A stretch of 64,000 nucleotides of DNA from Gallionella sp. (GTDB lineage Bacteria; Pseudomonadota; Gammaproteobacteria; Burkholderiales; Gallionellaceae), in NCBI GenBank assembly GCA_028689145.1, contig JAQTWT010000006.1, forward strand, positions 1-64,000. Reading direction: 5' to 3'. Position 1 is the stretch's first letter, and every line of letters begins with the position of its first letter. The notes below the pieces were generated by a model. That model saw only the letters and a program-made list of their open reading frames with translations, had not been told where the DNA came from and made no database searches. This document shows positions 5,080 to 62,417 of this stretch, one piece after another. Made by a program: the position numbers and the translations under genes.

Positions 5080-5137
5080 GTAGCGTGCGCTGTGCGCACG
5101 ATTTTGGTTGTGTTGTCGTGCGCACAGCGCACGCTAC
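5080..5137. repeat. REP/BIME-like inverted pair, family A copy 1
   Basis: GTAG is followed directly by the hairpin CGTGCGC-tg-TGCGCACG, then a short spacer and the mirror-image hairpin ending in CTAC. Near-identical copies lie at 38954 and 52401. The GTAG-plus-hairpin layout matches REP sequences recognised by RAYT enzymes. It lies downstream of the porin gene and could also slow or end transcription. Confidence 0.8.
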
Positions 5138-15778: not shown

Positions 15779-15878
15779 CCCTCCCCCTTGCAGGGGGAGG
15801 GCTAGGGAGGGGGTAGAAATTATGTACATTTCACTACTTCTACCCCCATCCTAACCTTCCCCCTGCAAGGGGGAAGGG
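15779..15878. repeat. Palindromic repeat, family C copy 1 (CCCTCCCCC...GGGGGAGGG)
   Basis: CCCTCCCCCTTGCAGGGGGAGGG at the left is itself a hairpin; the mirror hairpin CTTCCCCCTGCAAGGGGGAAGG is at the right, with GGGGGTAGAAA/CTTCTACCCCC between. A close copy lies at 19292 and a variant inside folC at 35450. It sits between the convergent pfp and dnaJ genes. Confidence 0.75.
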
Positions 15879-15885
15879 ACATTCA

Positions 15886-19291: not shown

Positions 19292-19396
19292 CCTTCCCCA
19301 TTAAGGGGGAAGGTTAGGATGGGGGTGAAATCGTTGAGTTACAGTGGAATCGAGTTTCTACCCCCACCCTAGCCCTCCCCCTGCAAGGGGGAGGGG
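19292..19396. repeat. Palindromic repeat, family C copy 2
   Basis: CCTTCCCCattaAGGGGGAAGG and, at the other end, CCCTCCCCCTGCAAGGGGGAGGGG form two hairpins in mirror order around GGGGGTGAAA / TTTCTACCCCC. It is the same element as at 15779. It lies in the grpE-dnaK gap, upstream of the dnaK promoter. Confidence 0.75.
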
Positions 19397-19401
19397 AGTT
19401 G

Positions 19402-34783: not shown

Positions 34784-36169
34784 ATGCCCTCTACTCTGGC
34801 CGACTGGCTAAGCTACCTCGAATCGCTGCACCCCAAGACCATCGCGCTCGGTCTGGAGCGGGTGGTGCAGATCAAACAGCGGCTAAATCTCCAGCCTGAT
34901 TTTCCCATCATCACGGTCAGCGGTACCAACGGCAAGGGTTCGGTGTGCGCGATGCTGGAAAGCATCCTGCACGCCGCCGGATACCGCGTCGGCTGCTATA
35001 CCTCGCCGCATTTGCTGCATTACAACGAGCGGGTGCGCATCAATAAACAGCAGGCCGGCAATGCCGAGTTGTGCGCGTCGTTTGCGCAGATCGAGCAGGT
35101 GCGCGATGACACCCCGTTAACTTATTTTGAATTCGGCACGCTGGCGGCGATGCAGTGTTTTATTTCTCATAAGGTGGATATCGCGATCCTTGAAGTGGGG
35201 CTGGGCGGCAGGCTGGATGCAGTGAATGTGTTCGACAGCGAGTGTGCGGTGGTGACCAGCGTGGACATCGATCACACCGATTATCTCGGCGACACGCGCG
35301 AGCAGATCGCGTTCGAGAAGGCCGGAATTTTTCGCAAAGGCTGCGTGGCAATTTGTGCAGATGCGGATGTGCCGCAGGCGTTACGGAATCATGCGTGGCA
35401 GGTTGGTGCAGAATTGTGGTGTATCGGCAGCGAGTTCGGATTTCAACTTCCCTCCCCCGTAGGCGGGGGAGGGAGCGAGGGAGAGGGTAGTGGCGACGAA
35501 GCACACACTATTGCCATCTCACAGACCCTCTCCCTAGCCCTCTCCCGCGAGCGTGAGAGGGGACAAATTCAACAGCAATGGAACTATCGCGGCAAAGTCG
35601 GCGCGCGCAATGCCTTGCCCTATCCGGCGTTGCGCGGTGCGTTCCAGTTGCATAACGCCAGCGCCGTGCTGGCGGCGCTGGATGTGCTGAAGGAAAAATT
35701 GCCGGTGAGCATGGAGGCAGTACGGCGCGGGCTGGTGGAAGTACAACTGGCGGGGCGTTTCCAGCTGGTGCCGGGCAGACCGACGCTGATTCTGGATGTG
35801 GCGCACAACCCGCATGCGGCGCGTTCGCTGGCGCAAAATCTCGCCGGTTTGCCGCCTTGTCCGCACACTTACGCGGTGTTCGCGATGCTCAAGGACAAGG
35901 ACATGGCGGGGGTGGCGGCGGCGCTCGATGCGCAGATCGACACCTGGCTGGTGGCGGGTATCGCCGCGCCGCGCGGCGCGGCGGTCGGGGAGCTGGCGCA
36001 GGTGCTGCGGGACAGCGGTGCGCGCGGCGAGATCAAGACCTTCCATAATGTCGGCGAAGCATTGCGTTATGCCTATAACGCGGCAGGTGAAAATGATAGA
36101 ATCGCGGCCTTCGGATCGTTCTACACGATCGCGGAAGTGATGGCAGAAAAAAATTTAGAGGTTCGCTAA
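34784..36169 (+). CDS. folC: Dihydrofolate synthase / folylpolyglutamate synthase with an in-frame repeat insert
   Basis: FolC adds glutamate to dihydropteroate and extends folate polyglutamate chains. The ATP loop SGTNGKGSVCAMLESIL, the YTSPHLLHYNERVRIN segment, VGLGGRLDAVNVFD and DHTDYLGDTREQIAFEKAGI are intact, as is LDVAHNPHAA. The 461-residue length exceeds the usual 420-435. Residues about 223-260 (from LPSPVGGGGSEGEG to ALSRERERG) are encoded by a palindromic element at 35450-35562 that keeps the frame open. The insert falls between GSEFGFQ and QWNYRGK, a variable loop, so the enzyme may still work. dedD follows 3 bp later. Confidence 0.94.
   Translation: MPSTLADWLSYLESLHPKTIALGLERVVQIKQRLNLQPDFPIITVSGTNGKGSVCAMLESILHAAGYRVGCYTSPHLLHYNERVRINKQQAGNAELCASFAQIEQVRDDTPLTYFEFGTLAAMQCFISHKVDIAILEVGLGGRLDAVNVFDSECAVVTSVDIDHTDYLGDTREQIAFEKAGIFRKGCVAICADADVPQALRNHAWQVGAELWCIGSEFGFQLPSPVGGGGSEGEGSGDEAHTIAISQTLSLALSRERERGQIQQQWNYRGKVGARNALPYPALRGAFQLHNASAVLAALDVLKEKLPVSMEAVRRGLVEVQLAGRFQLVPGRPTLILDVAHNPHAARSLAQNLAGLPPCPHTYAVFAMLKDKDMAGVAAALDAQIDTWLVAGIAAPRGAAVGELAQVLRDSGARGEIKTFHNVGEALRYAYNAAGENDRIAAFGSFYTIAEVMAEKNLEVR
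35450..35562 (+). repeat. Palindromic element (family C-like) inserted in frame within folC
   Basis: CCCTCCCCCGTAGGCGGGGGAGGG forms a hairpin at the left. CCCTCTCCC.GCGAGCGTGAGAGGGG forms one at the right, with GGGAGAGGG and CCCTCTCCC pairing between them. The layout equals the intergenic family C elements at 15779 and 19292. All codons across it are sense in the folC frame. Confidence 0.8.
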
Positions 36170-38942: not shown

Positions 38943-38953
38943 GCGTGACGGCG

Positions 38954-39009
38954 TAGCGTGCGCTATGCGCACGATATAGTTTTGATTCGTGCGCATAGCG
39001 CACGCTACA
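38954..39009. repeat. REP/BIME-like inverted pair, family A copy 2
   Basis: GTAG plus CGTGCGC-ta-TGCGCACG, a short spacer, and the mirrored hairpin ending in CTAC. The loop dinucleotide differs from copies at 5080 and 52401 on both arms, keeping the palindrome (TATGC/GCATA in place of TGTGC/GCACA), a sign of compensatory change or gene-conversion-like copying. Confidence 0.8.
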
Positions 39010-45910: not shown

Positions 45911-45929
45911 ATTTGCTTGAAGCAGATGC

Positions 45930-46181
45930 TTACTTCTTGGCAGCAGGTGCAGCGGCAGCAGCAGGTGCGGCGGCAGCAGCAGGTGCGGCTTCAGCAGCAG
46001 GTGCAGCAGGTGCAGCTTCAGCAGCAGGCGCAGCTTCAGCAGCAGGTGCAGCAGGTGCAGCAGGTGCTGCTTCAGCAGCAGGTGCTGCAGGTGCAGCTTC
46101 AGCAGGAGCTTCAGCAGGTTTTCCACCGCAAGCGGTCAAAGCAAGAGCCAACAGAGCAGCAATCAGAGCAGAGTGTTTCAT
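45930..46181 (-). CDS. Small Ala/Pro/Glu-rich lipoprotein
   Basis: The 83-residue product starts MKHSALIAALLALALTACGGKP, a signal peptide with lipobox LTAC. The rest is a low-complexity run of EAAPAAPAA-type units ending in KK. No fold is expected beyond an extended rod tethered to a membrane. The repeated GCAGCAGGTGCAGC DNA could vary in copy number by slippage. The other strand also shows open frames, but those are consequences of the repeat. It is followed by the shared terminator at 45883. Confidence 0.8.
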   Translation of the reverse strand: MKHSALIAALLALALTACGGKPAEAPAEAAPAAPAAEAAPAAPAAPAAEAAPAAEAAPAAPAAEAAPAAAAAPAAAAAPAAKK

Positions 46182-52400: not shown

Positions 52401-52456
52401 GTAGCGTGCGCTGTGCGCACGACAATGTTTGAAATCGTGCGCACAGCGCACGCTAC
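52401..52456. repeat. REP/BIME-like inverted pair, family A copy 3
   Basis: GTAG plus CGTGCGC-tg-TGCGCACG and its mirror ending in CTAC, nearly identical to the copy at 5080. It sits between lysS and the Crp/Fnr gene. Confidence 0.8.
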
Positions 52457-62341: not shown

Positions 62342-62417
62342 GTAGGCTGGGGTAAGGCACGAACCCCAGCGTTTGTAATCTCGAAATGCTGGGGTTCGCA
62401 AGCTCACCCCAGCCTAC
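62342..62417. repeat. REP/BIME-like inverted pair, family G
   Basis: GTAG plus GCTGGGGT...ACCCCAGC and, after a spacer, the mirrored GCTGGGGTT...ACCCCAGC closed by CTAC. Only one copy is in the window, but the architecture equals families A and B. Confidence 0.75.

Follow-up and report, generated by a model that had tools for sequence, protein, structure and literature searches.

A palindromic repeat carried in frame within folC of a Gallionella genome, and inserts at shared protein positions in its relatives

How does the gene of a conserved enzyme come to carry, without loss of its reading frame, a palindromic repeat that also lies between genes, and what does the protein make of it? This question is raised by folC in a 64,000-nucleotide stretch of a Gallionella sp. 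assembly (GCA_028689145.1, contig JAQTWT010000006.1, positions 1 to 64,000; the window). Here, we follow the repeat from folC to its other copies in the genome and to the proteins of related bacteria, weigh the explanations for its presence and compare it with known repeat systems.

The element and its host gene

The folC gene is a single open reading frame of 461 codons (34784-36169). Its product is matched by NCBIfam PRK10846 at 434 bits (cut-off 360) and is a complete bifunctional enzyme that carries both the GTNGKGS and the ligase motifs. The element measures 114 bp and spans FolC residues ~222 to 262 (Table 1). The preliminary description had seen in it an in-frame repeat without a stop codon that adds roughly 38 residues. 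Indeed, the 461-codon frame runs unbroken through 35449-35562, and alignment of the protein core gives an insert of 39 residues, which is missing from the FolC of E. coli and of Yersinia: the alignment with the former breaks at residue 221 and restarts at 265, that with the latter breaks at 218 and restarts at 271. The resemblance claimed for the two intergenic copies in the window is correct for the arm-plus-hairpin layout, both copies being, like the folC element, inverted pairs of units; their hairpin tip is of a different subtype.

Folded as RNA, the region 35446-35566 reaches -70.4 kcal/mol (z -5.67; 0/200 shuffles as good). A search of Rfam with the element gave no family at the gathering score, the same database finding two tRNAs elsewhere in the window; 22 matches to microRNA families obtained with E-values up to 1 lie far below the cut-offs and were set aside as chance hairpin likeness. 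The plasmid search returned one partial match of 55 bases, on a Variovorax plasmid.

An AlphaFold2 model of FolC based on 31 sequences (mean pLDDT 80.7) has E. coli FolC (1w78) as its top Foldseek match, with a TM of 0.84/0.94. The pLDDT drops below 50 at residues 224-262, flanked by strands 218-221 and 265-269, and the model predicts that the insert is disordered. The new surface loop that had been suggested is plausible on the same model. Another site that recurs below, residue 107, falls between helices 93-107 and 114-128.

Table 1. Coordinates, in the window, of folC, its element and two intergenic copies
Feature	Position	Strand	Basis or remark
folC (bifunctional dihydrofolate/folylpolyglutamate synthase)	34784..36169	+	host gene, intact
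Type-A palindromic element within the folC frame: arm-plus-hairpin unit twice, in opposite orientation; +39 residues	35449..35562	+	sequence, fold, alignments
Hairpin 1 including outer pair	35449..35474	+	alignment columns 3-28, 97.2% of cells paired
5' arm of central stem	35479..35488	+	columns 33-42
Element loop	35489..35524	+	57.5% mean identity, 9 orthologs, vs stems ~87%
3' arm of central stem	35525..35534	+	columns 79-88
Hairpin 2, reading frame differs between orthologs	35538..35561	+	ortholog comparison
Intergenic type-A element, TTGCA-tip subtype, 23-base hairpin	15779..15879	.	sequence
Intergenic type-A element, same arm-plus-hairpin layout, TTGCA-tip subtype	19292..19397	.	sequence

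Copies of the repeat across the genome and the search for a mobiliser

The family of the folC element, here called type A, was searched with the hairpin pattern CCCTCNCCCN{2,8}GGGNGAGGG. The 2,744,235-base assembly (G000) holds 83 perfect hairpins and none of the reversed control pattern. Within the class the distribution is patchy, with copies in 56 of 143 genomes (this one included) and a maximum of 110. The unit consists of a C-rich arm and a perfect hairpin of 21-26 bases, often as two inverted units; most copies examined are single units with the internal hairpin only. By a loose pattern, a further arm stands on exactly one side in 63/69 copies (32 downstream, 31 upstream), on both sides in three and on neither in three, and the unit is thus polar, arm plus hairpin.

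These 69 of the 83 hairpins were drawn in two ways: 50 are the earliest in contig order, and 19 were reached through resemblance or nearness to hits of the folC element. According to NCBIfam and Pfam scans of the spanning open reading frames, 22 conserved genes together hold 26 of them in frame, 18 from the contig-order set and eight from the set of 19. The folC case is real, and the phenomenon reaches far beyond the one gene first described. The genes are folC, sucB (two copies), a hybrid histidine kinase, an RlmN-like gene (two), a pepD-like gene, murC, murU, gcvPB, mfd, tilS, a fadB-like gene, an ABC-transporter ATPase (two), cobB, cobQ, cobD, trhP, pgeF, earP, cysH, ribD, polA and mutS (two); for FolC, TilS, the FadB-like protein, CobB, TrhP, EarP and the ABC ATPase, the HMM match on both sides of the hairpin is partly inferred from order. 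The count leaves aside Mpl, YihY, a glucosamine-isomerase/lactonase-type gene and DUF3024, where the hairpin precedes the start of the matched domain, as well as the probable cases GlnE, a NuoCD-like gene, a filamentous adhesin (two hairpins), an OppC-like gene and a 799-residue frame. The census, being a search for open frames, would overlook copies that break the frame; none of five pairs of reading frames flanking type A proved to be a split gene (one of the ten frames had no match).

Inside genes the hairpin occurs in each of its three frames, 14 copies being read as PSPASGRG-like, 3 as LSRLRER-like and 9 as PLPLAGEG-like peptides (chi-square p 0.03, uncorrected). Two further ideas were abandoned. 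The tip subtype is not tied to location (3/14 TTGCA-tip copies against 23/55 others in genes; Fisher p 0.22), and the signal for a repeat shaped to be free of stops is too weak, the hairpin with 13 bases on each side leaving on average 5.0 of six frames open in in-gene copies, 4.4 in other copies and 4.3 in neighbouring DNA.

Several copies have repetitive neighbours. At L008, L009, L011, L026 and L028, type A runs into a longer shared flank, GCAAACGAATCGCTGCGCGA, and some copies flanked in this way adjoin a AACGGGCATGGCA palindrome, perhaps as a composite repeat. A long flank that includes CAACACCGCCGGGGGTAGCCCGGCAGCTAGTCACTTTTTCTTGC, another dispersed repeat, is common to L024 and L025, close to the hairpins at C14:341515 and C3:84683. 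The glnE, RlmN-like and earP genes have type-A inserts together with copies of a second family in or beside them, as if collecting both; copies of that family stand at G000:C2:37626 (L062, inside the glnE frame), C6:129394 and C16:92612. The window also contains a low-complexity tract of 9-base GCAGCAGGT-like units (45922-46137).

A transposase for type A was sought by gene neighbourhood and was not found. Four Y1_Tnp matches occur in this genome, and its three RAYT-type genes each have their own GTAG repeats on both sides. A type-A hairpin was seen at one of 30 Y1_Tnp loci (L199, ~1.4 kb from the gene), these being drawn from the 52 matches listed, and in none of three further stretches. L073, which stands outside that scan, is a RAYT-type gene with a type-A hairpin ~870 bases away on one side only, within the neighbouring pepD-like gene. 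A GTAG/CGTC foot lies within 8 nt of 2/69 type-A copies. The window itself has palindrome pairs of GTAGCGTGCGC at 5080-5137, 38953-39008 and 52401-52456, a family that also flanks the RAYT-type transposase gene at G000:C7:219193 (L215). Near its end lie a GTAGGCTGG pair (62342-62417) and a GTAGGTGCGAAT repeat (63681), which belong to the families of the RAYT-type genes L073 and L216.

Insert sites in FolC, MutS and PolA of related bacteria

FolC was matched in 38 of 41 genomes searched, 22 of them at genus level (the Gallionella genome itself included) and 16 order-level outgroups. The full element occupies the folC site in three of the former (G000, G015, G016) and in none of the latter, as judged for these by the spacing of two matched blocks; the expectation that most relatives would lack it is thus borne out. 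The same site contains a half-unit in G001, a short scar in G019 and, in G022, 18 inserted residues of unrelated sequence. Comparison of empty and filled sites by eye gave no clean target-site duplication.

For a wider view we took the best 80 of 221 loci encoding related FolC, nearly all from metagenome-assembled genomes (MAGs) and titled mostly Gallionella or Sideroxydans (55 Gallionellaceae, 24 without a family, one Aquabacterium). All 80 keep a single open frame. Analysis covered 79; L173, which failed the motif test and stays outside the tree and the counts, encodes an intact FolC without insert when read separately. Inserts of at least six residues follow core residues 107 (106 in one case), 222 and 398, and there is also a C-terminal tail of six residues; the N-terminus was trimmed before the first conserved tryptophan motif, and the counts cover the remainder. 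With a threshold of at least eight residues, which leaves out inserts of 6-7, and with the insert of L154 shifted one residue earlier by hand, 26/79 loci carry an insert at ~107, 24/79 at ~222 and 2/79 at ~398. Site 107 holds 13 type-A inserts, seven of the GTAGGTCGGG REP, three of the GATTCCCGCC type, one type A with a nested second family, one of the CGTTGCGAGCAAG type and one without family label. Site 222, where the folC element lies, holds 20 type-A inserts, three of type A with the second family nested and one without label (the unlabelled inserts are those of L123 and L151). At site 398, L179 is classed as type A by a loose pattern. Nesting has left the frame unbroken in L106, L127 and L131, and the inserts of L061 and L157 appear composite by eye. 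L035/L142 show a 71-residue in-frame insert near the C-terminus (core 398) with the second family within.

The FolC inserts involve four multi-copy repeat families, namely type A, the second family, the GGATTCCCGCC type and a GTAG REP, plus one insert without repeat evidence. Copies were counted on both strands with mismatches allowed, and control counts were all 0. The second family (ACTAGCCATTCGACTAG, AACTAGCCATTCGACTAGGC) has 37 matches in G000 and 32 in G019; the genome of L106 has 34, that of L127 18 and that of L131 50, figures that may double where the palindrome fits both strands. For the GGATTCCCGCC type the counts are 41 (genome of L167, G188), 8 (genome of L140), 5 (genome of L171) and 3 (G000), and for the GTAG REP they are 41 (G003), 16 (G000), 11 (genome of L108) and 0 (G012). 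The CGTTGCGAGCAAG-type insert (L121/G012, ~107) was dropped as a repeat family, there being no second copy in G012, G003 or G000.

The presence of inserts changes often among these relatives. On a FolC tree of 80 rows (the window and 79 named loci), built by a quick method after removal of the columns bordering inserts and leaving 32 of its 77 inner branches open, site 107 requires at least 24 changes to account for 26 bearers of inserts of ten or more residues, and site 222 at least 16 for 24 bearers, counts that cannot tell gain from loss and that recombination could inflate.

Similar patterns are present in two other proteins. MutS, analysed at 25/25 loci of relatives, has inserts of at least eight residues at five positions, some of type A, some of the second family and some of other kinds. 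PolA (24/25 loci, one having failed the motif test) likewise has inserts of at least eight residues at five alignment positions; those at core 294, 302 and 322 make up a single hot region, in which both type A and the second family occur, and the N-terminal insert and that at 878 hold no recognisable repeat. One PolA insert peptide matches the MutS of G016 and the FolC of G015.

Origin of the insert and comparison with known repeat systems

We consider it highly probable that the folC insert belongs to a family of short, mobile palindromic repeats whose copies are tolerated in protein loops. A type-A copy would have landed in the folC of an ancestor common to several relatives. Such repeats would land widely; frame-breaking copies in essential genes would be lost, and copies that add whole codons and no stop would be tolerated in protein loops and translated as disordered peptide rich in Pro, Gly, Ser and Arg. 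The inserts are thus probably translated as extra floppy loops. The sequences themselves show membership of the repeat family, residence in frame, absence from relatives, repeated gain or loss, the plurality of families, nesting and covariation in the stems; the translation, the exposure of the loop, the retained activity of the enzyme and the transposition step with its enzyme are what we infer.

Why the same positions are filled repeatedly allows for two answers. Because unrelated families hit the same loops, shared positions would reflect what the protein tolerates, along with insertion into earlier repeats, rather than the target choice of one enzyme. An insertion preference for a target sequence or an existing palindrome, which would create hot loops irrespective of the protein, fits the nested insertions in earlier repeats and the composites of L061 and L157; yet several families with different ends share one codon, and both loops fall between secondary-structure elements of the model, and we hold such a preference to be unlikely as the main cause.

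The evolution of the element bears on a second alternative, an old segment domesticated as a functional loop and kept for a role in FolC. Across nine orthologs, 95.4% of cells in the three stems are paired and five stem pairs have changed on both sides, against 0-2 in slid controls (16/500 shuffles reach five). The covariation score is reached by 1/500 shuffles, controls which do not fully remove relatedness, and the number of further pair types is not above shuffles (419/500 reach it). Mean identity is ~87% in the stems and 57.5% in the loop, compared with 77.7% for core DNA of folC and 63% at fourfold sites. Over 11 orthologs, pN/pS is 0.62 in the loop vs 0.26 in the core and pS is 0.28 in hairpin 1 vs 0.51 in the core. 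Four of nine orthologs read the 3' hairpin as LALSxxRER, the other five as a PTPLPxAGEG-like peptide. With stems kept, a drifting loop and the 3' hairpin in two frames, it is the palindrome that persists and not the peptide. The simplest reading is that a DNA-level process, either re-insertion or conversion by other copies, preserves the palindrome, and that the protein asks only for a stop-free multiple of three; the loop pN/pS may reflect some protein constraint. That ratio, the recurrence of the I-S-I/V pattern in the loop peptide of orthologs and the sharing of the element by FolC of several lineages speak for domestication. Loop DNA is, however, about as divergent as fourfold sites, the 3' half is used in two frames, the tree demands 16 or more changes of presence at this site, inserts in MutS and FolC of relatives are matched by the peptide of a PolA insert, and the loop is predicted to be disordered. 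Domestication thus seems quite improbable to us.

Skipping of the insert, by excision from the mRNA or bypass by the ribosome, would yield an enzyme of normal length. The hairpin is extremely stable, a feature of known bypass elements, but a skipped insert needs no open frame and all 80 named loci keep one whatever their insert; moreover, the compensating single-base differences seen across orthologs stay inside the element. We give this reading very little credence. An artefact of assembly or binning, suggested by the predominance of MAGs among the named records, is very unlikely, as the element recurs at the identical codon with diverged flanks in MAGs of independent studies and 21 other genes of the assembly are affected.

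Returning to the mobile repeat tolerated in loops, we put forward a bolder version that is tentative and less likely to be right than wrong. Type A may be an undescribed class of mobile palindrome, neither a REP nor moved by RAYT, with unrelated families using the same loops as safe harbours and DNA-level processes keeping the palindrome near perfect while the peptide drifts and shifts frame. Among the papers listed by our searches, with subscription journals thinly covered, there was no report on such inserts in this lineage, and a search with the hairpin string gave no bacterial-repeat paper among the matches listed, which says little.

Protein-coding palindromes are a recognised and little-tested route by which selfish DNA adds protein sequence, and this lineage is a good place to test how mobile DNA does so. 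Related bacteria provide natural pairs of FolC, MutS and PolA with and without an insert at the same loop, spanning several repeat families and states of decay, and tolerance, translation, decay and domestication thereby become directly measurable. For annotation, such inserts lengthen protein families and could pass for domains.

Among known systems, MITEs such as Correia/NEMIS and ERIC are presented in PMC2229807 as small, non-autonomous and at times fused in frame. Their terminal inverted repeats resemble the two inverted units of the folC element; they differ in that no target duplication is established for type A. REPINs or BIMEs are two REPs in inverted orientation. In them, as in the folC element, a variable loop separates two units of opposite orientation whose arms pair; pairs of this kind, from families other than type A, stand beside the three RAYT-type genes found here. 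Type A differs in unit make-up and foot.

Thauera is a betaproteobacterium. Intragenic GTAG/CGTC REPs are already on record for it and for others, including Thioalkalivibrio and Rickettsia conorii (PMC3733652), which corrects the remark that such elements are rarely noted in betaproteobacteria. The same paper places many of them in DNA repair genes, DNA polymerase I included, with dimers encoding 20-30 residues, and describes two Xanthomonas recB genes struck at about the same site (PMC3733652). The likeness lies in palindromic repeats within genes, DNA polymerase I among them; in contrast, type A is without the foot (2/69) and was not seen flanking RAYT genes, and by the tests run it is not a GTAG/CGTC REP. 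The true GTAG family is present here too, at FolC site 107.

A further parallel is with the Rickettsia palindromic elements (RPEs), described as palindromes of ~100-150 bp in several families, both intergenic and in frame in conserved genes (PMC2229807, PMC10969869); a guanylate kinase with an insert is stated to keep its activity (PMC2229807). The folC element is likewise palindromic, 114 bp long and multi-copy, and type A occurs both between genes and in frame in conserved genes (26/69, 22 genes). Unlike the RPEs, it belongs to another lineage, uses all three hairpin frames, and shares its loops with different families that have struck them repeatedly across related species. The likeness is one of layout and behaviour, and the parallel with the protein-coding palindromes of Rickettsia drawn from the outset is well supported as a way of working.
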